From a virus: DNA of 31,085 nt. Position numbers and translations under genes: made by a program. This document shows, piece after piece, positions 1,578-27,754 of the stretch (positions are counted from its first letter, which is position 1; the number at the start of each line of letters is the position of its first letter). The stretch lies in the IMG/VR virus record IMGVR_UViG_3300007516_000085, positions 1-31,085 of that record; one strand, given 5' to 3'. The notes beneath the pieces were generated by a model. That model was not told where the DNA came from and did no database searches. It saw only the letters and a program-made list of their open reading frames with translations.

Positions 1578-1888
1578 TTTCTTTTCCCCTTCTTCGTAGG
1601 CGCAACCTGCTGCTCAGGGAGCTGCTCGGGTGGCTCAGGAGCGGCCTTTTGATGCTTGAAGCTATACCAGAAGGGCGGGTAACTACTGGCCCCTCTGCAG
1701 CATGTGATGTCCGTGACAAACCACGATGCCCCTCCCCACGCGTCGTCGCCTTCCATGGGCAGGCGGGCAAGCTCAGTCACCTTGACCACCCTCGAGTCGT
1801 CAGCCGCGAAGGCAATGGCCCACGCAGCTGACTGCTCGTCTTCAATAGGGGTGTAGAAGGTCCTCACAGTCCCGTCGCGCCAACTCAC
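1565..1888 (-). CDS. Small hypothetical protein between baseplate J and fibre-like gene
   Basis: Only the stop at 1565 is firm. The frame is open up to a TTG at 1993, but that start would overlap the gpJ-like gene by 77 nt, unlike the tiny overlaps elsewhere, and has no ribosome site. I place the start at GTG 1888 (TTG 1891 is equally possible); neither has a clear Shine-Dalgarno sequence, so translation may be coupled to the gene before. From that start the product is about 107 residues. It has a mixed alpha/beta core beginning V-S-W-R-D-G and a basic, Gln/Pro-rich tail ending in Lys/Arg residues. I do not recognise the family. The location suggests a tail or baseplate accessory protein. Confidence 0.5.
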   Translation of the reverse strand: MSWRDGTVRTFYTPIEDEQSAAWAIAFAADDSRVVKVTELARLPMEGDDAWGGASWFVTDITCCRGASSYPPFWYSFKHQKAAPEPPEQLPEQQVAPTKKGKRKCRA

Positions 1889-1916
1889 CAAGACGGCGTG
1901 GGTGGCTGTGCGTGCT

Positions 1917-3275
1917 TCAGCGTCCTGTGACGTCGGAGAGTCTGAGGGTGAGCTTGTGGCGAGGAGAGCCTGGGTACAGGTCTGATTGATCAAACGTAAG
2001 ATTTACAACCCCCTGGGCAACGCTCAACGGAGCAATGGCGCGTGTCATCTGATAGATAATCAGTGGGGCGCCGGGAGGTAACCCAGCGACGTAGGCGACA
2101 ATAGCTTGGTTGAGTTGGGTGCGCAAGGCGTTCAAGTCGGAACCGCTCACACTCACCATGTTGTAGGTCAGTGCGATGGCCTGCGACGTTGGCGCCACTA
2201 CGCGAACAGTCACACCGGCGGCGACACACACCACGTTGATATAGCGCTGCAGCTCTGCAATGATGCCAGTATACACCTCGTGGCCTCCTACGCTCCATGC
2301 GTCGCCCGGGGTCACCGTGAACTGAGGTGCCTTGTTAAGGTAGATGACGTTGCGTTCGTGTTGTAGGCGGTAGGAGCTCCGAGGGCGGACCTGCCCTGCC
2401 GTGGTCAACACAGGGGGCGTCGCCACAGGACCGTCGACCGTGAAGGTGTAGCGACTGCCTGTCCCGATGAGGGTGGTCAACTGCCCTGAGTAAGTCTCTG
2501 CTGGGCGGGTGTAACCGATCATGTCCGACCCATCGGACACAACCAACTCGGAGTAGCCTCTCTGGTCGGGGTCGTTCCACATCCGTGCGTGGCGCAGGAC
2601 GACGCCGTCGCTGGCCTGAAAGTTAAGAGCGATGGCCTCGAGTGCCTCGTTCTGAGTCAGTGCGAGCGAGCCTACCCAACGCTCGGCTCGTTGGCGTAGC
2701 TCAGGGTCACGCTCTTTGTCGCTGCCCCCAAGGAGGGGTTGGGTGTTGGTGCATTCAATGACCTCGTTAGGTTTGCGTGAGATGGTGTCGACTGCGCCTA
2801 CCTGCAGGATGTTGCCTGCCGCGCCAGGGGAGAGCGCAACAAAGGCGATAGACACCGCTGTGTAGGAGCCGGGATCGATGGTGAAGGCGGACACGTTGGT
2901 GTACTGGGTGGTGGGTGATGTGCTCACCGAGACCAGCATGGCGCGCGCGGCGACCGTCGTGGTGCCCGTCGAAAGGGACCGGGTCACGCGGAAGGCACCA
3001 CCAACCGCCGGCGTGGATTGGCGCCGCTTGGGGAAGCCTGCGGGGAAGTCATTCAAGCGGCGGTCGAGGTTGACGCCGGTGCCGCGGAAGTAGAAGGCGT
3101 CTACGAACTCTTGGATTCGCCGCTCGACTGCACCGATCTCTTCTGCGACTGACCCCATGAGCGTCCCGAGGACACCGCCTTCAGAGAGGTCAGAGAGGTC
3201 CCGCGAGACTGAGACCACCCGTGCGACGAGCTCAGCCATGATTTCAAAGGGGAGGCGTGGGATGTAAATGGCCAT
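1917..3275 (-). CDS. Baseplate assembly protein, gpJ / T4 gp6-like wedge protein (452 aa)
   Basis: The order gpW/gp25-like gene then this gene matches the W-J pair of P2-like contractile tails. The N-terminus starts with a short peptide containing IPRLPFEIM and a helical segment rich in acidic residues that leads into a V-E-R-R-I-Q-E-F helix. The middle contains the typical gpJ pattern of small beta-rich domains with a P-L-L-G-G-S-D-xE-x-D-x-E-L-R-x-R-A motif near residues 180-195. The C-terminal part has a long helix-rich region ending in beta strands, as in gp6 wedge proteins. The ATG at 3275 follows the previous stop by 2 nt. The protein should form the wedge ring of the baseplate that triggers sheath contraction. 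Family assignment is from motif pattern and context. Confidence 0.85.
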   Translation of the reverse strand: MAIYIPRLPFEIMAELVARVVSVSRDLSDLSEGGVLGTLMGSVAEEIGAVERRIQEFVDAFYFRGTGVNLDRRLNDFPAGFPKRRQSTPAVGGAFRVTRSLSTGTTTVAARAMLVSVSTSPTTQYTNVSAFTIDPGSYTAVSIAFVALSPGAAGNILQVGAVDTISRKPNEVIECTNTQPLLGGSDKERDPELRQRAERWVGSLALTQNEALEAIALNFQASDGVVLRHARMWNDPDQRGYSELVVSDGSDMIGYTRPAETYSGQLTTLIGTGSRYTFTVDGPVATPPVLTTAGQVRPRSSYRLQHERNVIYLNKAPQFTVTPGDAWSVGGHEVYTGIIAELQRYINVVCVAAGVTVRVVAPTSQAIALTYNMVSVSGSDLNALRTQLNQAIVAYVAGLPPGAPLIIYQMTRAIAPLSVAQGVVNLTFDQSDLYPGSPRHKLTLRLSDVTGR

Positions 3276-3277
3276 GT

Positions 3278-5152
3278 TTAACTCGCACTGTAGGTGAAGT
3301 TGATATGCGTTGGTGCAGCGCCCACAGGTTCGACCACTGTGTCTACCTCGACTTTATCCCCGATCTCAGTCAGCGTAAACGAGACGATGCGACTCGTGCG
3401 GTGGTCGGCTAGGAGCTGCGATCGGACGTTGGCTCGTAGATCCCCAGGTACGTCGGAAGTGGCGCGCGCTCCGATGGAGGGGCGCAGCCCATAGCGAGGG
3501 TAGACCTTGTTGCTCCCCTGCTCAGTCCGCATGCGGTGGCGTAGGTTCTGCGTGTAGCAGTCGTAGCCACTGACAGTGGCGATGTCGGTATTTCCGACCG
3601 CTACGAGGTCTCCGTCGCGATGGAGGAGGTCGGTCCCGAAGACGTCACCATTGCGCACGATGGCGCCTACTGCGCGCGGGACAGCGATGACATTCCCTGT
3701 CTCGAAGGGACGTCCGTCACCATGTGTGTAGGCGTCGAGGAAGCTGTTGTATGTGATGAGGTCATCAGCGCGTGACCTGTCCCCATAGACGTTGCCCGCG
3801 ACGTCGTAGAGAGAAGAGTCGCCGCTCGCCACGACGTACTGCTCAGTGGGGACCGGGACACCGGGAATGAAGTTAGACACCATGTTCGCGCGAGAGTTGC
3901 CGCGCTCAGTGTAAAAGCGCATACTTAGTAGGAACTGAAACAGGTTGTATGCTGGGCCAATACACTTCAGGAAGCGTGCACCACTCCCTACTTGCCCTGA
4001 GTTGGCGAGGTCAGCCGCGAACATCAGAGTGTAGAAGTTGTTAATGAAACTAGCCTGGTACATGTGGTAGGGGCGTGTGTTCGCCCACATGCTGAAGCGC
4101 ATTAAGGACGTTGTCCCTGCTGCGACCTCAGGGCACCCCGGAGGGAGTGTAGGGTCAAGGTAGCGGACAGGCACCTTGAAGTTGGGGGCGTCTAGGTCAG
4201 GGATCTCGTTCTGGCTCAGCTTTAAACATGCGTGCTTAAAGCCTGTGTGGTAGCTGTCGCGCTTGTTCTGGAGCAGCGTCAATGCCTTGACGTTGTAAGG
4301 GAGTTGCCACTTGTTCCCGACAGGGGAGTTGGTGACGATGCTCAGGACAAACTCAAAACTATTGGTCGAGCTGCCATGCGCTCGCGTGTAATCGAAGCTG
4401 ATCACATCGCACAGGTAGGCTTCGGCCTCGAAGGGGAAGAAGAGGGCAAGCTGCACGTCGGTACCGCGCACGAGGGCGTTCTTGTTCTTCTTGCTCAACT
4501 CACTATACAGCTGCAGGAAGTTGCGGACCTTCTGGAAGCGCAGCATGTCCAGTGGGGTGTCACCTGACCGCCCGTGTAGTTGGAACGTAGCTTGCATGAA
4601 GCCCTCGTTCTCTTGGTACACTACCCCGTCCATGCCGCGTGTGCGCACGAGTGCGACAGGGTCTGACTTCACGACCTTGAAGATGTAACGAAGCGAGACC
4701 GCGTCGCGCACGCGCTCAGGGTGGTCCTTGTAATCTTCAAAGAGTTCAAGGAAGTACGGGGCCGGGGAGACTGAAGCATCGGGGACATAGTAGTGCCCCG
4801 GCGATGTCAGCTGGCGTGTGGCGATGTCTCCGAACTCTTTACGCTTGGCCGCTCGCGTGTCGTCTTCGTCACGGTCCTCGATGTCATCTGATACAGGGGC
4901 CAGCGGTGCTGCCCCGGCCTGCAGTATGTCAGAAGGGTCTCTTGGCAGCGGAGGCACCGCTGCGTCGTTGGCTGTCATCGGCTGTATAGGGGGCAGCGGC
5001 ATCACGTCTAGGGGTGCGGGCAGTCCTGCCGGGATCCAAAGAGGTGTGAAGCCTAGGCTAAGCGGTGAGTACGCCGGTGTGCTCTGGCCCCATCTATTTG
5101 GGTAGTCTCCCCACAAGGCAGTGCGAGGGTCAGTGTGGTCTGTGAAGCTCAT
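3278..5152 (-). CDS. Baseplate protein with C-terminal gpW/T4 gp25-like domain (624 aa fusion)
   Basis: The last ~120 residues look like the gp25/gpW lysozyme-like baseplate fold: a G-D-L-V-A-V-x-N-T-D turn, a Y-T-Q-N-L-R-H-R-M-R-T-E-Q-G-S motif, Y-P-R-Y-G, and an L-L-A-D-H-R-T-S-R-I helix followed by paired strands. Classical gpW/gp25 proteins are only about 110-150 residues, so about 500 extra residues are fused in front. That N-terminal part has a Pro-rich start (residues 20-80), an acidic linker with D/E-R repeats (about 88-100), and a globular segment with S-F-E-F-V-L-S-I near 270 that may correspond to a gp53 or LysM-type baseplate domain. A GAGGGG site precedes the ATG at 5152. It probably anchors the wedge to the hub and sheath initiator. 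Confidence 0.75.
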   Translation of the reverse strand: MSFTDHTDPRTALWGDYPNRWGQSTPAYSPLSLGFTPLWIPAGLPAPLDVMPLPPIQPMTANDAAVPPLPRDPSDILQAGAAPLAPVSDDIEDRDEDDTRAAKRKEFGDIATRQLTSPGHYYVPDASVSPAPYFLELFEDYKDHPERVRDAVSLRYIFKVVKSDPVALVRTRGMDGVVYQENEGFMQATFQLHGRSGDTPLDMLRFQKVRNFLQLYSELSKKNKNALVRGTDVQLALFFPFEAEAYLCDVISFDYTRAHGSSTNSFEFVLSIVTNSPVGNKWQLPYNVKALTLLQNKRDSYHTGFKHACLKLSQNEIPDLDAPNFKVPVRYLDPTLPPGCPEVAAGTTSLMRFSMWANTRPYHMYQASFINNFYTLMFAADLANSGQVGSGARFLKCIGPAYNLFQFLLSMRFYTERGNSRANMVSNFIPGVPVPTEQYVVASGDSSLYDVAGNVYGDRSRADDLITYNSFLDAYTHGDGRPFETGNVIAVPRAVGAIVRNGDVFGTDLLHRDGDLVAVGNTDIATVSGYDCYTQNLRHRMRTEQGSNKVYPRYGLRPSIGARATSDVPGDLRANVRSQLLADHRTSRIVSFTLTEIGDKVEVDTVVEPVGAAPTHINFTYSAS

Positions 5153-8530: not shown

Positions 8531-11293
8531 TTAGGGGATAGCTGAGTCAGCGAGACTGCGGAGAGCGTTGGCAGCTGAGTCAAGCGCCATGCTCCACTTC
8601 TCCCGTGTATCAAGGTCTGCAATTTTACTTTCAGTACCTATGAGCCCGAAAGCTCTCTGAGTCAACGCAGTCCACCGCCCGAAGACGTTGTCTTCAGGCA
8701 CTAACCCTTCATCTGTTGTGGGCGTACCTGCCAAGTTCATCCCACCCATGTTCTTCATGGAGGCTTGGATCGCTTCTGATTCATTGGGGAAGAGGGCCGA
8801 CGCTGCCATTTCTTGCAGCATCGGGTGCATCGAGTTCCACCCCTCTACGAAGCCTTGCATGGAGTCAGACCTCGCATTGTATTTGTTCATGCCCTTCAAT
8901 GTCCCGCCGCCGCGCTTTATAGCATTCATAGTCTGAAAGCCTTGAATCATCTTGCGCATGGGGTCGCCAGTGATGTTGGCGATGTACTCTTGGTTCGATG
9001 CAGCTTGCGCGCGCAGACCGGGGATGGCGGCGTAGCTGACACCGCTCTTGAGCATGGCGTCCAGGCTGTTCGCCCCTACGTTCAGACTGCCACTCAGTCC
9101 TTTGGAGTAGCCTGCCTCGATCTGAGATTGGATGGCTTCGATCACTTGGTGTTGAGGTGTCCCCATGACGCCTCTCCGCGTGAGTGCGGCGATCATAGGG
9201 TTGAGGTCGCCCGACTCGCCAGTGAGGCGCCCAACGCGAATGCCTTGCGCGCTGAGGTTGTCGGTCGCCCCCATCTTGAGCGCGCGGACCATGGCCGCGA
9301 CATCTTGTGACAGGGTGCGCCCTGTCACGCCGTGGCTGCCTGAGAAGCCTTGGTAAGCATCTAAGGCAGCGCCTGTCTCCAAGCCGAACATGCCTAGACG
9401 CTTCAGGGCGTCAAGCGATGCGTTCGCCCGTCGGTTTGCGGAGCCGTGCTCGTCCCGGTAAGCTAAGCTCCCTGAGAGTGCTGCGGTAAAATCGTCTTCA
9501 CTGAACGAACTGGCGTCGATGTAGGTACGTCGTAGCTTAGCGTTACCTAGATAGGTTTCTGTCTTTGCACCCGCCCTCGCAGCAGCGTCCCTGACGCCCT
9601 TGGACGTGTTTATGCCGTGGTGGTCAGCTGCCGCTTTCATGCTCTGGCGTTGGGTTGTACTTATGCCTGCGTCAGCGTCGCGCGCCCTACGGTCAGTTAT
9701 CATCTCTGCTATCAAGCTGTCGGGGATGTTGTCGGCTACACCTAAGCGCAGGTCAGCGCTATACTGCTTCGCTTTCCTGCGTGCCTCACCCTCACTCATC
9801 ACCGCGGTGCCGCCGCCACCCGACTGCACATACAGTTGTCCGATGGATGTAGTTGGTGCGCGCCCTTCGCCGACGTTGAACTGGCGGCCGCGCAGGTCAA
9901 ACAGCGGCTCTGCTGTCGCCATGATCTTGTCCATCTTCGCGGTGTTCTCGTAGCCTCGCGACAGTCCTGCGGTCAATAGCTTGCCTGCGATCATGGCCAC
10001 AGTCCCCACCCCGGACATGCCTAACCCTGCCATGACTCCTAACCCGCCTCCACTTGCACCAGCTCCGGGCGCGCCGCCAGCGGCCAACCGCGCGGCCTCG
10101 ACCTTGGTTGCCTCTGCGCGTGCCGCACCTGCCATCCCTAAACCGCGTGCCTCCAAGAAGGCGCCGGCAGTGTGCAGCGCGCGTCCTGGGATACTGGACA
10201 GGTCGCTGCCTACCATCCCTTGGAGTCCCGTGCTGACACGGCGGTAACCATAGAGCAGGCCCGCTGTCTGGATGAGGGAAGAGTCGCGGTGGGCGGTAGC
10301 GGCTTGCTGTTGCACGGCGCGCGTCTGCTGGGTGACTGCTGACTCTTGCGCCCTGGTCGCCTGCCCATACTCCTTGAGCATGCGCTTGCCTCGCGGGCCT
10401 GCGAGCTCCTCACGCGAGAAGGACGCGAGGTCTGTCTGCAACTTGAGTGCCGTCTTGAACAGCCCTGCTGTGAGGGTGTCCAGCTTGCTTACATCTAACG
10501 CACCTTGCGCGGCGGTCAGACGCGCGCCGACGGACGCGCGCTGCTGGTCACCTGTCTGGAGCCCCTCTTCTCTGGACGCTGCCTTATGTCCTGACGCGAT
10601 GAAACTTTTTGCGCTCCTAAGCGCTGCCTGGCCTCGGGCAGTACCAGGGGAGGATGATGCCTCGCGAAGAGCTTTCTGTGTGTCGGTGAGCCACTCAGCG
10701 TTCATCAGGCCGGGCGTGCCTAGGGCGCCCATGCGAGACCGGAGCGCTTGGAAGTCTTCTGCGACCTCCGGCGAGGCTGACCGCGCTTGGCGCATCTTTC
10801 CTGTCAGGGTGAAGGTGCGCTCGTTTGCTACTCTAGCTGCGACTTTTGCTTTCAGGCGCACATCAGCTAAGGCGCGCTCCTCGCTTGTAAGGCTGGGGTT
10901 GGTGGCGCGGTTTATCAACTGTTGGGCTGACGGGGATACACTCGCCGTGCCTACACTCGCTAGGACATCGCGGGCTCTGTTAACTCTCAGTCGGTCCTGA
11001 ATACGTGCCGTGTTCGCAGCATTGGTCGACTGGACTTTCGCTGACCATCTAAAATTACCTGCTTGGTGGGTGACTCCAGCGTCGTCATAACTGGCAGGCA
11101 CCACTGCGGAGACAGTTACAGGCCCCCCTCGCGCATCCGCGAGAGCACGCCCCTTAGACGCTATGCGTGCCCTGTCAGTGTTGGTCAACGCAGCTTCAGC
11201 TGCAGCAACTGCCGCGAGCCGCTGCCCTACCTCCCTTCGTGTGGCGGTAGCATCTTCGAAGCGTACGTTGACTGAGACGTTGTCATTTGCCAT
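8531..11293 (-). CDS. Tail tape measure protein (920 aa)
   Basis: It is the longest tail gene and sits right after the tail assembly chaperone pair, the standard place of the tape measure gene. The N-terminal ~350 residues are Ala/Arg-rich helices with many charged repeats. A hydrophobic Gly/Ala-rich stretch around residues 400-440 (with M-A-G-L-G-M-S-G-V-G-T-V-A-M) could span or insert into a membrane, a usual feature of tape measures. The C-terminal half is again helical and ends with a short amphipathic helix. The ATG at 11293 overlaps the chaperone extension by 11 nt and has a weak GGGG site. The protein fixes tail length and helps pass DNA across the inner membrane. The length fits a tail of moderate size. 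Confidence 0.85.
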   Translation of the reverse strand: MANDNVSVNVRFEDATATRREVGQRLAAVAAAEAALTNTDRARIASKGRALADARGGPVTVSAVVPASYDDAGVTHQAGNFRWSAKVQSTNAANTARIQDRLRVNRARDVLASVGTASVSPSAQQLINRATNPSLTSEERALADVRLKAKVAARVANERTFTLTGKMRQARSASPEVAEDFQALRSRMGALGTPGLMNAEWLTDTQKALREASSSPGTARGQAALRSAKSFIASGHKAASREEGLQTGDQQRASVGARLTAAQGALDVSKLDTLTAGLFKTALKLQTDLASFSREELAGPRGKRMLKEYGQATRAQESAVTQQTRAVQQQAATAHRDSSLIQTAGLLYGYRRVSTGLQGMVGSDLSSIPGRALHTAGAFLEARGLGMAGAARAEATKVEAARLAAGGAPGAGASGGGLGVMAGLGMSGVGTVAMIAGKLLTAGLSRGYENTAKMDKIMATAEPLFDLRGRQFNVGEGRAPTTSIGQLYVQSGGGGTAVMSEGEARRKAKQYSADLRLGVADNIPDSLIAEMITDRRARDADAGISTTQRQSMKAAADHHGINTSKGVRDAAARAGAKTETYLGNAKLRRTYIDASSFSEDDFTAALSGSLAYRDEHGSANRRANASLDALKRLGMFGLETGAALDAYQGFSGSHGVTGRTLSQDVAAMVRALKMGATDNLSAQGIRVGRLTGESGDLNPMIAALTRRGVMGTPQHQVIEAIQSQIEAGYSKGLSGSLNVGANSLDAMLKSGVSYAAIPGLRAQAASNQEYIANITGDPMRKMIQGFQTMNAIKRGGGTLKGMNKYNARSDSMQGFVEGWNSMHPMLQEMAASALFPNESEAIQASMKNMGGMNLAGTPTTDEGLVPEDNVFGRWTALTQRAFGLIGTESKIADLDTREKWSMALDSAANALRSLADSAIP

Positions 11294-11549
11294 GGGAGCC
11301 CCACTGAGCCATCAGCTTCTTGTCTAGTTCGTCGAGCGCTGGATTACCTGTCTTCATCGGACCACCTGTCCGCAGTGACTGCTGTATTAGCACACGAGAC
11401 CATTCATCGTCGCTGAGGCGTAGGAGCATTGCCTCGTGACAGACCTCTGGAGCCAGTGCAGGCAACAGAGGGTTGATGTCAGACGCGGGGACTGGGGGGA
11501 GAAACAGCCTTACACTCGACCAGAAAGCGCTCAGTCGTATCTTCTCCAC
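11283..11549 (-). CDS. Tail assembly chaperone, T extension reached by ribosomal frameshift
   Basis: This open frame overlaps the end of the upstream chaperone gene and ends 11 nt inside the tape measure gene. It opens at a GTG (11549) without a Shine-Dalgarno site, and its first residues merely mirror the end of gene G in another frame, so independent translation is unlikely. By analogy with lambda G/GT and many tailed phages, the ribosome should shift from the G frame at the C6 run (11499-11494). The frame relation needs +1 or -2. The fusion would join 191 residues of G to 70 residues here, about 261 residues. The T part has an L-L-P-A-L-A-P helix and a basic C-terminal end. It would recruit tape measure and tube subunits. 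Confidence 0.75.
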   Translation of the reverse strand: MEKIRLSAFWSSVRLFLPPVPASDINPLLPALAPEVCHEAMLLRLSDDEWSRVLIQQSLRTGGPMKTGNPALDELDKKLMAQWGSHGK

Positions 11550-22198: not shown

Positions 22199-23650
22199 TC
22201 AAGCTGACGATGCAGTGGACACCATGCGACGCCCCCCGACGAACGACGAGACGTCGTCGGGGATGATGTCGGGATTGATTGAAGTCCCCTGCTCTACCAA
22301 CTTCTGAAGGTACATTTGGTAGCTTGAGTGCAGTGGACGATTGGACACTGGGTCCTTCCATGCAGGCAAGTTCATCAAGGCGCGCCCCTCGTTCACAGAC
22401 ATGAGGGTTTGCACGCACTTGATAATGTTCTCCTGCTTCTGTGTCTCGGTGACCGAGTCGAAGCCGTAGAACTCGAACTGGTATTCAGGCCAGTGCGGCC
22501 AGATTATGGTGGTGTTGATCTGGTGCGCGATCCAGCGCAGCAGCGGGCGTAGGCTGCGCTCCTTGCTGGCGACGATGCGGTCCTGCGGCGATAGGTCAGA
22601 CTTGGACTTGGATGACTTCTCGTCACCAAACGTGAAGCCTAGTTCGATCGGGTCCATGCCGAACATCGCACAGACAACCTTCGTATTGTAGTTCAACCAG
22701 TTCATGAACTCCATGTCGCTGGCCGTCTTGCCGAATGGGTGGACCTCCACAGACTCATTGAGGTTCGGGTTGAGCTGGATCAGTGGGACTGATTTGTTCT
22801 TCCGCACGCCGGACAGCATCGCTTGGAAGGACTCTTCAACCCGCTTGAAACGCTCTGGCCCCATGAGTGACTTGATGGTGGCGAAGTTGTTCCCAAGGTA
22901 GCCTGTGGTGTACAACTGTGCGTTGTGGGTGTGCGCGTTGAGGAGCGCCGCGATGGACCCGACGAGCATGGCCAACTCTGGCATACCATAGCCAAAAGCT
23001 GTGACGCCTGGGAGGGCGTTGCGTGTTGACCATGACAGTTCATTGCGCTTGAAGCGTGCAGTCTCACGCCCGTGCATGTACTGAACTAGTTCAGCCTTAG
23101 AGAAGTCGAACTCCCCTTTGTCTGAGACGTGTTCTGTCGGGATGAGTAGGCGGATAGTTTGCGGATCCAACAGCCGGAACGCGACAGGCTTACCTAGTCG
23201 CGACAAGATTGGTTGGATGTGTGCTTGGTCCACTGCCAGTGTATAGAAGGTCAGCGACCGCAAGAACTGCTCGAACCCTCCTGTCTGCCACTCACCACCC
23301 GCAGTCTCGATGATCGCTGCGATGTGTTCCATCCTGTAGCGGTCGGTGCTGGATGGGATGGCGTGCTGCTGACGCAAACGGATAGTCCACCCATTCATGT
23401 GCTGGGTTGTCAGGCGCTTGCTGAAGTCGACGACTTGGTTTTGCCTTGTGCCGATGACTGACGCCACGATGGACGTGCGCGCCATGGCGTACAAGCTGTG
23501 GTAGGTGAGCGGCGGTACACCAATGTGCGTACCGTATGCGCCTGTGCTGATGGCGCGTGCGGTCTCAACTAGGGTGTGGTCGACGTTCGACCCTAGAGGT
23601 GCGACGACTGCCACCCCTCGTGCGACAGTTTTAGCTTTACGTCGTACCAT
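22199..23650 (-). CDS. Portal protein (483 aa)
   Basis: The protein shows the portal pattern: an N-terminal region with a substrate-like Y-A-M-A-R-T-S-I-V-A-S-V-I segment, a central R-L-L-D-P-Q-T-I-R motif, the conserved Y-G-M-P-E-L-A-M-L-V-G-S-I-A-A-L-L-N-A-H helix near residues 220-240, and W-L-N-Y-N-T-K-V-V-C-A-M-F-G-M-D-P-I-E-L-G-F followed by helices. The length fits portals of siphovirus and myovirus type. GAGG precedes ATG 23650, which overlaps the previous ORF by 14 nt. Twelve copies form the DNA entry ring at one capsid vertex and dock the terminase during packaging. Confidence 0.9.
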   Translation of the reverse strand: MVRRKAKTVARGVAVVAPLGSNVDHTLVETARAISTGAYGTHIGVPPLTYHSLYAMARTSIVASVIGTRQNQVVDFSKRLTTQHMNGWTIRLRQQHAIPSSTDRYRMEHIAAIIETAGGEWQTGGFEQFLRSLTFYTLAVDQAHIQPILSRLGKPVAFRLLDPQTIRLLIPTEHVSDKGEFDFSKAELVQYMHGRETARFKRNELSWSTRNALPGVTAFGYGMPELAMLVGSIAALLNAHTHNAQLYTTGYLGNNFATIKSLMGPERFKRVEESFQAMLSGVRKNKSVPLIQLNPNLNESVEVHPFGKTASDMEFMNWLNYNTKVVCAMFGMDPIELGFTFGDEKSSKSKSDLSPQDRIVASKERSLRPLLRWIAHQINTTIIWPHWPEYQFEFYGFDSVTETQKQENIIKCVQTLMSVNEGRALMNLPAWKDPVSNRPLHSSYQMYLQKLVEQGTSINPDIIPDDVSSFVGGRRMVSTASSA

Positions 23651-26096
23651 TGCGGACCTCTTGCATGATAGATGCTAGTGTAGTCAGCGTTGCAGCATAA
23701 CCTTTCATGATCAGCATAGTCTTTAGCTCAGTGGCGGGTGGGCCACCGTCTGCGACTGCGCGCTGAATGTAGTCGCTCGGTGTGAGTACCTTGCGAATGT
23801 CGTAGTGGTCTGTCTCACGGATGTAAGAGCTAATCGCTGCGGTACACACAGTGTCGTCACGCCGCATGTGAGTCACGGACATGTAACTCTTGACTATCAC
23901 CTCAGGCACGACTGCTGCCTGCACGTCTGCGGCCTCAGATTCTGCCACGACTTGCTGCCAGGCACTGAGATGTGTAGTGACGATGACGTCGAGTGCGCCG
24001 AGCTCGTCGTCGACTTCAGCCGACAGCGACTTTGCCACCTTGCTGGCAAGCGTCTGTCTGATGGACATCTTGACTGCGGTCAAGTTCTTCACCACTTGGG
24101 CGCGCTGGGTTGTGGATGACGCTGACTTCCACGACGCGCGCAGCTGCTTCAGCCGTTGGCGGAGCGCCTGCACGCGCGCGGACGTGGTCTGTTTTTGCTT
24201 CTCTGGCTGCTTCTTCTTCTTGCCAGTCCCGCCGACACGCTCCCACTGCCCGTTGCCTACCTTGCGCCAGCGACTGCCATCACCGTGGACAGCGACCTGT
24301 CCGAGGGGGTCGCCCCGCGTACCTGCCACGGAGCCTGACTTTTGAAAGCTCGCCACCTCTGAGATGAACGTGGTGACTTCGGCGAGGAAGAGCGCTGTGG
24401 TCTCTTCGTCCTTCACCGCGGTGAAGACCTCAGTGAAGAACTGGATGCCGCTTGGTGCGATTAACCCACTCACCCCCTTGAGGAGGAGTTGGGCATACAG
24501 CGGGGCGCAACCGGCACGGACGTCAGAAGCCGCGAGACTGTTGGAGTGCCGGAAGGATGGGGTAGACATCGCCTGCTTCGGCGTAGAGGTCCCCGTCGTC
24601 GAGCACCACGGGAGATCCTGGTTTAGGCCAGGCGTATCCGATGGATTTTGAGTAGAGGTCAGCCCCTCGGTCGGTAAACCCTGTGGTTGTGACCTCGTGG
24701 TTGTGCTGGTACTGGTAGGGCTGGGCTCCGGGCTGGCGCTCTGCGGGGTCGGGGGTTGGCTCGGCGTACCCAGCATCGTCTGCGGTGTAGACTGGGGGAG
24801 GAACTTCTCCGTCTCCAAGGTCTCCACCGTCGTCGCCGATGTCGCCTCCTCCGTCGAGCTCGCCGGTGGGGTCGTCGAGGTCGTCGTCGCTCCCTTCCCC
24901 AAGGGCGTCGAGCTCTGACTCAACTGAATCGAAGTCGGGTTCAGCACCAGCTTCTCGTACAGTGTCCTCACCAGCCGCGGGATCTCGCCCTGCGGAATCT
25001 CCTTCGGGACGGACTTTAGGACTTGATCCTCGGCGTGTTGCCATAGCGACTCCTCCTGTGGAGTATGAACTGCGCCCTTGTTCAGGGCACCGAAGGTATT
25101 CTTAAAGATGGAACCGCCACCACAGCTCTCGAGGAACGAGGCTTGGACGTGGGGCGGGACGTAGCTCATGTCTGCGGGGCTTTGTCTGTGCCCGTAGAAC
25201 TCCGCCATGACTTGACTCGCCTCAGCGATCGACCCGCGGACCTTGTCGATGCCCGAGCCCATCGAGTCGATGCGTACTCGCTTGGTCTTAGACAGGAGAT
25301 CGACCGCCATCTTGGCTTGGGCGTGCGCGCGGATGGTCGGGACCGGGACGTCACCTAGACCTACCTCGCTGAGCGCGGAGCTGATGCAGTCCGGCCCACA
25401 ATGGAACAAGGGCCCAGTGGGGCTCTGAGAGCTGCGGGCGGTTACGTGGGCTTTGAGCTCAGGAGATTTTGACTCCCAGGTGAACTGGCGCCCCGACGCA
25501 TGGTTCAGTAGGATCGGCAGGCCGCCGCGGCCCTTGCGCACGGAGGTGCCGACGTGGCCTCGCTGGATAGAGAGCACCTGTTCTACGCTGTGCCCGTGCT
25601 CAGCCACGATGTGCGCAGCAAGGTAGCGGTCCTTGTCGCCGTCGGGTGCCTCGTTGTAAAGGCGGAGCAACTCGCTGGGGGCGTACGACAGCGCCACCTT
25701 GTTCTGTTGCATTGCAGCGAAGGTGTGGCGGTGCTTGCGCTGATGAAAGTTCTTAGAATACGACCGGTTGGCGTTTCCTTCCTCGTCGTCCCACGTGGCC
25801 ACTGCCTTTCCGTCCATGTCCCCGTCGGTGTCTACGGAGACGTGGGATGGGTGGATGGCGTCACTAGGACTGAACCCGTCGAGGTCGTACTTCGAAGCAA
25901 GTAGGCGGTTGCCTAAGGTGTTGGCGTCGGCGGCTCCCCCCACACCTTCAACCTGGGCCGGGCGCGCTTCGCTCTGTGGCGGCTTGTCCCCGTCCTTGAT
26001 TTGCTTCCAGTTCTTAGCGTCAGGTGATGCCGGTTTTTGCCAAACCGAGCCATCTGCGCGCTGTGTCTGAACCCCGGATGGTAGTTGCTTGCTCAT
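23637..26096 (-). CDS. Topoisomerase IB-like domain protein with long low-complexity linker and C-terminal head-region domain (819 aa)
   Basis: Numbered from ATG 26096 (the TTG at 26105 is less likely). Residues about 80-318 resemble the catalytic domain of poxvirus-type DNA topoisomerase IB: a W-D-D-E-E-G-N-A-N-R-S-Y turn, K-G-R-G-G (Lys188), T-I-R-A-H (Arg256, His258) and S-Y-V-P-P with Tyr312 as the probable nucleophile. This family nicks and rejoins one DNA strand. Residues about 390-530 read as a Ser/Thr/Pro-rich linker, but there the -1 frame codes a convincing separate gene. From about 530 a new domain follows, with G-D-G-S-R-W-R-K-V, a Lys-rich stretch and long helices. An internal ATG at 24569 could start that part alone. 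It ends 14 nt inside the portal start. It may be one fusion or two genes lacking a stop between them. Confidence 0.65.
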   Translation of the reverse strand: MSKQLPSGVQTQRADGSVWQKPASPDAKNWKQIKDGDKPPQSEARPAQVEGVGGAADANTLGNRLLASKYDLDGFSPSDAIHPSHVSVDTDGDMDGKAVATWDDEEGNANRSYSKNFHQRKHRHTFAAMQQNKVALSYAPSELLRLYNEAPDGDKDRYLAAHIVAEHGHSVEQVLSIQRGHVGTSVRKGRGGLPILLNHASGRQFTWESKSPELKAHVTARSSQSPTGPLFHCGPDCISSALSEVGLGDVPVPTIRAHAQAKMAVDLLSKTKRVRIDSMGSGIDKVRGSIAEASQVMAEFYGHRQSPADMSYVPPHVQASFLESCGGGSIFKNTFGALNKGAVHTPQEESLWQHAEDQVLKSVPKEIPQGEIPRLVRTLYEKLVLNPTSIQLSQSSTPLGKGATTTSTTPPASSTEEATSATTVETLETEKFLPQSTPQTMLGTPSQPPTPQSASPEPSPTSTSTTTRSQPQGLPTEGLTSTQNPSDTPGLNQDLPWCSTTGTSTPKQAMSTPSFRHSNSLAASDVRAGCAPLYAQLLLKGVSGLIAPSGIQFFTEVFTAVKDEETTALFLAEVTTFISEVASFQKSGSVAGTRGDPLGQVAVHGDGSRWRKVGNGQWERVGGTGKKKKQPEKQKQTTSARVQALRQRLKQLRASWKSASSTTQRAQVVKNLTAVKMSIRQTLASKVAKSLSAEVDDELGALDVIVTTHLSAWQQVVAESEAADVQAAVVPEVIVKSYMSVTHMRRDDTVCTAAISSYIRETDHYDIRKVLTPSDYIQRAVADGGPPATELKTMLIMKGYAATLTTLASIMQEVRNGTT
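24523..25044 (-). CDS. Gene nested inside the topoisomerase IB-like ORF in the -1 frame (173 aa, acidic)
   Basis: ATG 25044 is preceded by AGGAGGAG at ideal spacing, the best ribosome site in the neighbourhood. The whole 174-codon frame lies within the longer ORF, shifted by -1. Its codons show the G-rich first position usual for this phage (many GAC, GGC, GAG, GCC), while the containing ORF reads here as repetitive Ser/Thr/Pro. The product is acidic at residues 30-80 (D-D-D-L-D-D and G-D-I-G-D-D-G-G-D), then Pro/Tyr/Gln-rich, and ends in a folded-looking stretch with Y-S-K-S-I-G-Y-A-W-P-K-P-G-S-P-V-V-L-D-D-G-D. I do not recognise a family. A small head decoration or scaffold-like role is conceivable from position only. 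Confidence 0.7.
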   Translation of the reverse strand: MATRRGSSPKVRPEGDSAGRDPAAGEDTVREAGAEPDFDSVESELDALGEGSDDDLDDPTGELDGGGDIGDDGGDLGDGEVPPPVYTADDAGYAEPTPDPAERQPGAQPYQYQHNHEVTTTGFTDRGADLYSKSIGYAWPKPGSPVVLDDGDLYAEAGDVYPILPALQQSRGF

Positions 26097-26194
26097 GAGC
26101 GGCAAGCTACTAGGCAGCGGCGTAACCCAATACGGTGTTATGTTTTAGCGGGATGCGCGCAGCTTATAAAATAAACTAGCAGCGTTTAGTCAGC

Positions 26195-27101: not shown

Positions 27102-27264
27102 ACAGTGCGTCTGAGGTAGGTGGTAGCCACGGGCGGACGCCGCGTGGAAACCGTGTTCTTTGGTACCTTCCCTGCGTCGCGTGGTCCGAGGAATGCCGTG
27201 GTACCTGTGAGGGGTGGAGGATGCGCGAGACAGTGTGCTGCGACCGCCTCAGAGAAGGTTAAAG

Positions 27265-27316
27265 ACCGTGGTTAAGGTGGGAGGGTTTAAAACCGTGGCT
27301 TGGGTTGGGAGGGTTT
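27265..27316. repeat. Two imperfect direct repeats, 27-bp spacing
   Basis: ACCGTGGTTAAGGTGGGAGG (27265 onward) and ACCGTGGCTTGGGTTGGGAG (27292 onward) share ACCGTGG at the start and a GGGAGGGTTT end. They start 27 bp apart. The purine-rich GGGAGGG core echoes the GGGGGAG core of the 21-bp repeats further on. Confidence 0.75.
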
Positions 27317-27476
27317 GAAAGGGGTTACCGCAGGGAAGCCCTTTGCGTTTGTTTGTCTTGATGCGCGACCGAAGGGAGCAAAGCATCAAGAGCATTGCAT
27401 TACATTTCATACTCATATCATGTGTATTTTGGATCTGACCTAACCTTATGAAATCATTCAAATCTAAAAAGAACTT

Positions 27477-27572
27477 AAGGGGGAGTTCAGGCGATATAAG
27501 GGGGAGTTCAGGCGATATAAGGGGGAGTTCAGGCGATATAAGGGGGAGTTCAGGCGATATAAGGGGGAGTTC
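27477..27572. repeat. Tandem array of a perfect 21-bp repeat, four full copies plus 12 bases
   Basis: The unit starts AAGGGGGAGTTC and ends AGGCGATAT. Copies occupy 27477-27497, 27498-27518, 27519-27539, 27540-27560, and a partial copy 27561-27572. They are identical and contiguous. Twenty-one bp is two helical turns, so bound proteins would sit on one face of the DNA, as with replication iterons. Confidence 0.95.
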
Positions 27573-27626
27573 GTTTTGAGGGAATCATTGAGCTTTTTAA
27601 CTTTGACCTTAAACGCCTCAGGCACG

Positions 27627-27666
27627 GACTTAAAATATAAGGAGGGCTGACTTAAAATATAAGGAG
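27627..27666. repeat. Two copies of an 18-bp AT-rich repeat, 22-bp spacing
   Basis: GACTTAAAATATAAGGAG occurs at 27627-27644 and 27649-27666. Within it CTTA and TAAG form a small inverted repeat. The end ATATAAGGAG is like GATATAAGGGGGAG in the 21-bp array, so the two families may bind the same factor. The AT-rich character would suit a DNA unwinding element. Confidence 0.85.
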
Positions 27667-27683
27667 CTTTAGGGGCGACATCT

Positions 27684-27714
27684 AAAAAAAAAACGACACC
27701 AAAGTGGTGTCGTT
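27684..27714 (-). terminator. Strong Rho-independent terminator of the two-gene control operon
   Basis: A 9-bp stem (AACGACACC with GGTGTCGTT, loop of five) is followed on the minus strand by a run of ten T. It lies 41 bases after the stop of the 543-residue gene and cuts that operon off from the repeat region. The plus-strand side has only TTCTTCTC, so it could act weakly in that direction too. Confidence 0.9.
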
Positions 27715-27754
27715 CTTCTCAGTGCATTCATGTCCTACCTGGCTGCCTCGTCAC

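Follow-up and report, generated by a model that had tools for sequence, protein, structure and literature searches.

A conserved gene almost certainly nested out of frame within a two-domain gene of the head cluster of an uncultured contractile-tailed phage

The window analysed in this study is a complete IMG/VR entry of 31,085 bases, a fragment of the genome of an uncultured contractile-tailed phage. Profile matches identified genes for a portal (PF04860), a head protease, a major head protein and a tail sheath, all on the minus strand. The portal gene, whose closest counterparts among annotated phages are SPO1-like (about 29% identical), lies directly downstream of a long open reading frame (the outer ORF) and overlaps it by 14 nt, so that the locus falls within the cluster of head genes. 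The outer ORF comprises two conserved domains, A and C, with a Ser/Thr/Pro linker between them, and is 42% identical along its length to positions 1761-4661 of an independent contig, L094 (IMGVR 3300044646_000627). A second ORF, gene B, lies inside it in another frame of the same strand. The features of the locus are as follows.

22199-23650, minus strand: portal gene (PF04860 8e-17, phrog_12 1.6e-28)
23637-26105, minus strand: outer ORF, 822 aa if started at TTG, 819 aa if started at the ATG at 26096
25047-26096, minus strand: outer part A, the N-terminal domain, 47% identical to L094
24525-25046, minus strand: outer linker across the nested gene; its first about 35 residues resemble the end of A and the remainder is Ser/Thr/Pro-rich
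23637-24521, minus strand: outer part C, a basic domain (pI 9.5) with the top coding score of the outer ORF and the second copy of a DGS-W-K motif
25057-25050, minus strand: Shine-Dalgarno sequence AGGAGGAG, 5 nt before the nested ATG (25044-25042)
25042-25046, minus strand: nested start, straddling two outer codons, of which the first contributes its final base (CTA-TGG, Leu-Trp; ATA-TGG in L094)
24523-25044, minus strand: nested gene B, 173 aa plus stop, pI about 4.1, in the -1 (+2) frame relative to the outer ORF

Elsewhere, the window carries two tandem arrays in an intergenic stretch of lower GC content (27131-27754), one with a 21-nt unit repeated 4.6 times with 100% matches (27476-27572) and the other with a 28-nt unit repeated 2.2 times (27259-27320). 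A protein at the contig edge (30002-31084, minus strand) combines a GmrSD N-terminal domain with an HNH endonuclease domain.

A sequence-only reading of the window had placed a nested gene at these coordinates, in the -1 frame, behind a Shine-Dalgarno site and wholly inside an ORF of about 820 codons, and all of this proved accurate. Between the stop at 25104 and the TGA at 24525 the nested frame contains no stop codon. By eye, its ribosome site is the strongest among the gene starts listed for the window, and in L094 the nested ATG has GGAGG 10 nt upstream; the outer start has no ribosome site or a weak one in both phages. Of the codons that make the nested start, CTA accounts for 48 of the 454 Leu codons in the window (11%) and ATA for a single one of the 43 Ile codons in L094. 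The B protein is acidic, with 39 Asp+Glu against 11 Lys+Arg. Its N-terminal half is acidic, variable and of low complexity and is followed by a conserved EPDFD-VES-L segment; the C-terminal 85 aa are conserved and Tyr/Pro-rich. The N-terminus (MATRRGSSPKVRP) is charged, and inspection of the translation revealed neither a hydrophobic stretch there nor a Cys anywhere in the protein.

Searches with B and its relatives gave no match in Pfam, PHROG or NCBIfam and no convincing one in the PDB, and no homologue outside the window clade that would show its function was found. The AlphaFold2 models were poor (pLDDT 41 and 49); that of B, built from 3 sequences, had a mean pLDDT of 49, leaving the folded-looking C-terminus proposed earlier unconfirmed. 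Nor did the earlier label "topoisomerase IB-like" find confirmation for the outer ORF: there was no match to PF01028 (DNA topoisomerase IB) in the window at E<=10, part A gave no Pfam, NCBIfam or PDB-sequence match, and the L094 protein was also without a Pfam or PDB match. Arg182, Arg259, His306 and Tyr315 of the outer ORF, which may correspond to members of the Arg-Lys-Arg-His-Tyr catalytic set of topoisomerase IB, are kept in L094, and the Lys is not clearly aligned. The C part of the L094 outer protein includes a domain of the phrog_2859 kind (residues about 758-883) that is absent from the window's C, an apparent loss or gain between the two. Domains of this kind occur in many phages and in many portal-bearing contigs (L013-L091).

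Portal alignment revealed three contigs with portals 67% identical to that of the window. One of them, L094, shares the architecture of the locus, with a nested ATG ORF at 2828-3445 in the same relative frame, and the nested proteins of the two phages are 52% identical over the aligned part. L096 is a partial homologue covering the 3'-terminal 105 codons of the nested gene; L095 starts just past it. A further contig, L001, was rejected as an informative relative, being nearly identical to the window (6 differences in 11.7 kb). Only two independent lineages are known, all of them from uncultured contigs. In the portal relatives L013-L091, with about 30-37% portal identity, homologues of A, B or C were undetectable. 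Alignment of the nested gene against IMG/VR gave matches limited to contigs of the window clade, and against genomes the outer ORF had no match and the portal matched distant MAG loci only.

Comparison of both frames across relatives had been proposed, and a test of this kind was run with the window and L094. At four-fold codons of the portal and protease genes, 48 were identical against 48.3 expected from independent usage, indicating that synonymous positions are saturated between the two phages and that shared ancestry does not explain the identity of their nested proteins. Simulation of selection on the outer protein alone, in which that protein was held fixed and synonymous codons were redrawn, predicted 34.2±4.6 nested identities, while 86 of 166 were observed, an excess of 11 SD that was reached in 0 of 3000 simulations. 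A shuffle restricted to the synonymous codons of each gene itself gave 39.3±4.4 with a maximum of 53. At the level of sequence, these results put selection on the nested protein beyond reasonable doubt. Differences within the overlap also track the nested codon (n1 0.32, n2 0.32, n3 0.515).

The converse test asked how many outer identities would be expected from B alone. The 61 observed compare with 48.0±4.7 under general codon usage (P=0.004), 49.6±4.1 under the own-codon shuffle (P=0.0035) and 56.1±4.8 under major-capsid codon usage (P=0.18). That the outer frame is open across the overlap in both phages had P=0.022, or P=0.10 with major-capsid codon usage. Within the overlap, then, the outer frame appears only modestly constrained; that the linker is under constraint is probable but falls short of proof. 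Of the 9 sites at which L094 and L096 differ in the conserved part of B (L094 3176-3445), none alters both proteins; the low divergence between these contigs late in the overlap could stem from recombination (mosaic divergence), and this comparison was not used as proof. Sharp blocks of near-identity and of high divergence between L094 and L096 (L094 6100-8800 and elsewhere) suggest recombination in the head gene region.

The natural codon pattern claimed for the nested frame was borne out. Under a model built from the window's other genes, it scored a log-likelihood ratio (LLR) of +0.11 per codon, whereas the 247 length-matched out-of-frame windows, taken in both shifted frames, all fell below -0.06. 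A scan of all frames found three strong same-strand second or unlisted frames, namely the nested gene (LLR 0.185) and small ORFs at 1565-1993 and 11283-11549; the best score beyond these was -0.013. The two small ORFs, both on the minus strand, have strong coding-like codon usage and are probable small genes that either overlap larger ones or sit between them. Positive scores were common among antisense frames, including over the nested gene, and were left out as evidence. Within the overlap the signal is not uniform. Over the first 40 nested codons the nested frame is poor and the outer frame outscores it; between about 24930 and 24523 it is the nested frame that outscores the outer, which sinks to about zero and, past the nested stop, climbs to its top coding scores. 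Over the nested bases the outer frame is 47% Ser/Thr/Pro, compared with 21% in other window proteins, a shift in composition that had been read correctly from the single sequence.

It might be argued that the nested ORF is only a chance open frame in a GC-rich stretch coding for a Ser/Thr/Pro linker, with the outer protein alone being made. The overlap is indeed GC-rich, and a single sequence gives a P of about 0.006 to 0.05 for openness: when the outer protein was held fixed and synonymous codons were redrawn, the probability that the nested frame stayed open was 0.006 for the window and 0.010 for L094, and a gentler variant, the own-codon shuffle, gave 0.05 and 0.009. However, the nested protein shares 52% identity with that of L094, where about 20-24% would be expected, its start occupies a homologous position in both phages, made from an uncommon codon in one and a rare codon in the other and preceded by a strong ribosome site, and its codon usage is gene-like. 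The identity simulation described above (86 against 34.2±4.6) in our view refutes a chance frame, which we regard as scarcely credible. Programmed -1 frameshifting from the outer into the nested frame, yielding A with an acidic, Tyr-rich tail and no separate B, would agree with the -1 position of the nested frame and with a coding score that comes mainly from about 24930 on and not at the ATG. A scan of 25104 to 24523, however, found no slippery heptamer upstream of the nested signal, the sole XXXYYYZ heptamer (GGGTTTA at 24681) lying after its onset, and the nested ATG and ribosome site are homologously placed in both phages, with the first residues aligning. Frameshifting is accordingly very improbable as an account of these data. 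The nested ORF, we conclude, is almost certainly a genuine gene, one that automatic annotation would probably miss.

A different reading concerns the outer frame. B could be the sole working protein across the overlap, with A and C made as separate proteins, translation of C beginning at an internal site, and the 822-aa reading a dispensable by-product. This accords with the weak outer constraint within the overlap, with an ATG for C just past the nested stop in L094 (3471) and L095, and with the small DGS-W-K motif common to A and C (P=0.023 in the window; 0 of 2000 shuffles in L094). Nevertheless, the outer frame is stop-free between 26105 and 23639, and in all three sequences that cover the overlap (the window, L094 and L096) it is open through it and continues into the conserved C domain, so A cannot end as a separate protein and translation must enter C. 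The starts of C are not conserved either: the window has TAT at the site of the L094 ATG, its own ATG at 24569 is without a counterpart and is not homologous to the ATG at 3471, several GTG codons are likewise unconserved, and all these candidates have weak ribosome sites. Separate production of A and C is therefore unlikely, and the "two separate outer genes" suggested by the sequence-only reading fail as a present-day account, although they are likely as a history, the genes having later been fused.

The stronger nested coding signal between about 24930 and 24523 makes the outer linker look newer there; over that stretch the linker is probably the newcomer and the nested frame the older. The earlier suggestion of true overprinting thus holds for the overlap of two genes, the nested one being conserved beyond outer expectation, while along most of the overlap the direction was probably the opposite of the one it implied, nested over outer. 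The simplest history, and a likely one, starts from ancestral tandem genes A-B-C. Loss of the stop of A would have let translation run through B's shifted frame into C; the shifted reading of B would have been kept as a disordered linker, and the N-terminus of B may have come to overlie the end of A. The linker contains 47-53% Ser/Thr/Pro, against 38-42% predicted from the B protein alone under general codon usage. Such a fusion through a living gene, in which loss of a stop joined the flanking genes and the middle gene continued to be made while its shifted frame became the linker of a two-domain head-cluster protein, is a proposal to which we give an even chance. In line with such a fusion, A and C share the DGS-W-K motif and no start of C is conserved, and in L013, a distant relative, two separate tandem genes lie upstream of the portal; these two also have a motif in common, though not detectably the same one as DGS-W-K. 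Variable enzyme-like proteins adjoin the portals of distant relatives (L013 7012-8301 and 8270-9736; L014 11308-14967). By eye these include an acetyltransferase-like protein and a helicase-like one of 1219 aa; a basic/aromatic motif is often present close to the N-terminus, and the proteins are possibly packaged cargo.

As judged from the sequences compared, B encodes a conserved protein, both outer domains, A and C, are likewise conserved, and no stop interrupts the outer frame across B in any of three sequences. In the explanation that we favour, two same-strand proteins would be made from the same bases. Ribosomes starting near 26096 would read the outer frame to give one protein of about 820 aa, consisting of A, the Ser/Thr/Pro linker and C; those loading at the Shine-Dalgarno sequence at 25057-25050 would start at the ATG at 25044 and produce a separate, acidic B of 173 aa in the -1 frame. 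Given the strong ribosome site of B and the absent or weak one of the outer gene, B may be the more abundant product. Because of its position in the head operon and its charge, opposite to that of the basic outer C, B might act as an acidic accessory protein of head assembly or of the virion, perhaps as a partner of the C domain; this is the least certain step, and we put it forward only tentatively. We consider the explanation of two proteins made from the same bases, B by internal initiation, to have a good probability of being correct.

The proposed mechanism, internal initiation, is ordinary; the architecture, in which a tailed phage carries a long out-of-frame nested gene among its head genes, is uncommon, and the comparative evidence for it is good. 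Outside lysis cassettes, annotations of dsDNA tailed phages rarely include long out-of-frame nested genes, since gene finders disfavour them, and the present case passes a quantitative test using uncultured contigs alone. It also suggests a route to overlaps, namely gene fusion across an intervening gene, in which the linker and not the nested gene is the new coding sequence. The combination of a strong internal ribosome site, a low-complexity outer segment and a gene-like second frame may serve as a template for finding others.

Among known systems, the C/Nu3 pair of phage lambda is a head-operon example: the scaffold gene Nu3 is nested within the larger gene C, near the portal, and is expressed by internal initiation. 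B is likewise predicted to be a second, smaller head-operon protein made by internal initiation; however, Nu3 is in frame with C, whereas B is out of frame and has no protein sequence in common with the outer protein. The embedded Rz/Rz1 spanins of lambda and T7 resemble B in being complete genes inside another gene, on the same strand and in a shifted frame, and gene finders often miss them. In a survey of spanins, o-spanins were found in both +1 and -1 frames, and in one envisioned route to embedding the upstream gene loses its stop and comes to reach beyond the gene that follows it (PMC6139136), the same step as in the fusion proposed here. B differs from these spanins in lacking, by inspection, a lipobox or signal sequence, in its location, which is among head genes and outside any lysis cassette, and in having an outer frame that runs on to a second conserved domain rather than ending near the nested stop. 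An Rz1-like identity for B was rejected, since it has no lipoprotein signal, a charged N-terminus and no Cys. Overlaps in DNA viruses are typically short, with a median of 15.6 nt (PMC8903798), whereas the overlap described here covers 522 nt in a dsDNA tailed phage. The birth of viral overlapping genes by overprinting has been reviewed (PMC8227390), and in overprinted genes one frame is enriched for residues that are of high degeneracy and promote disorder, Ser and Pro among them (PMC6195259). The outer linker shows the same Ser/Pro enrichment, but over most of this overlap it is the linker, and not the nested gene, that is the probable newcomer.
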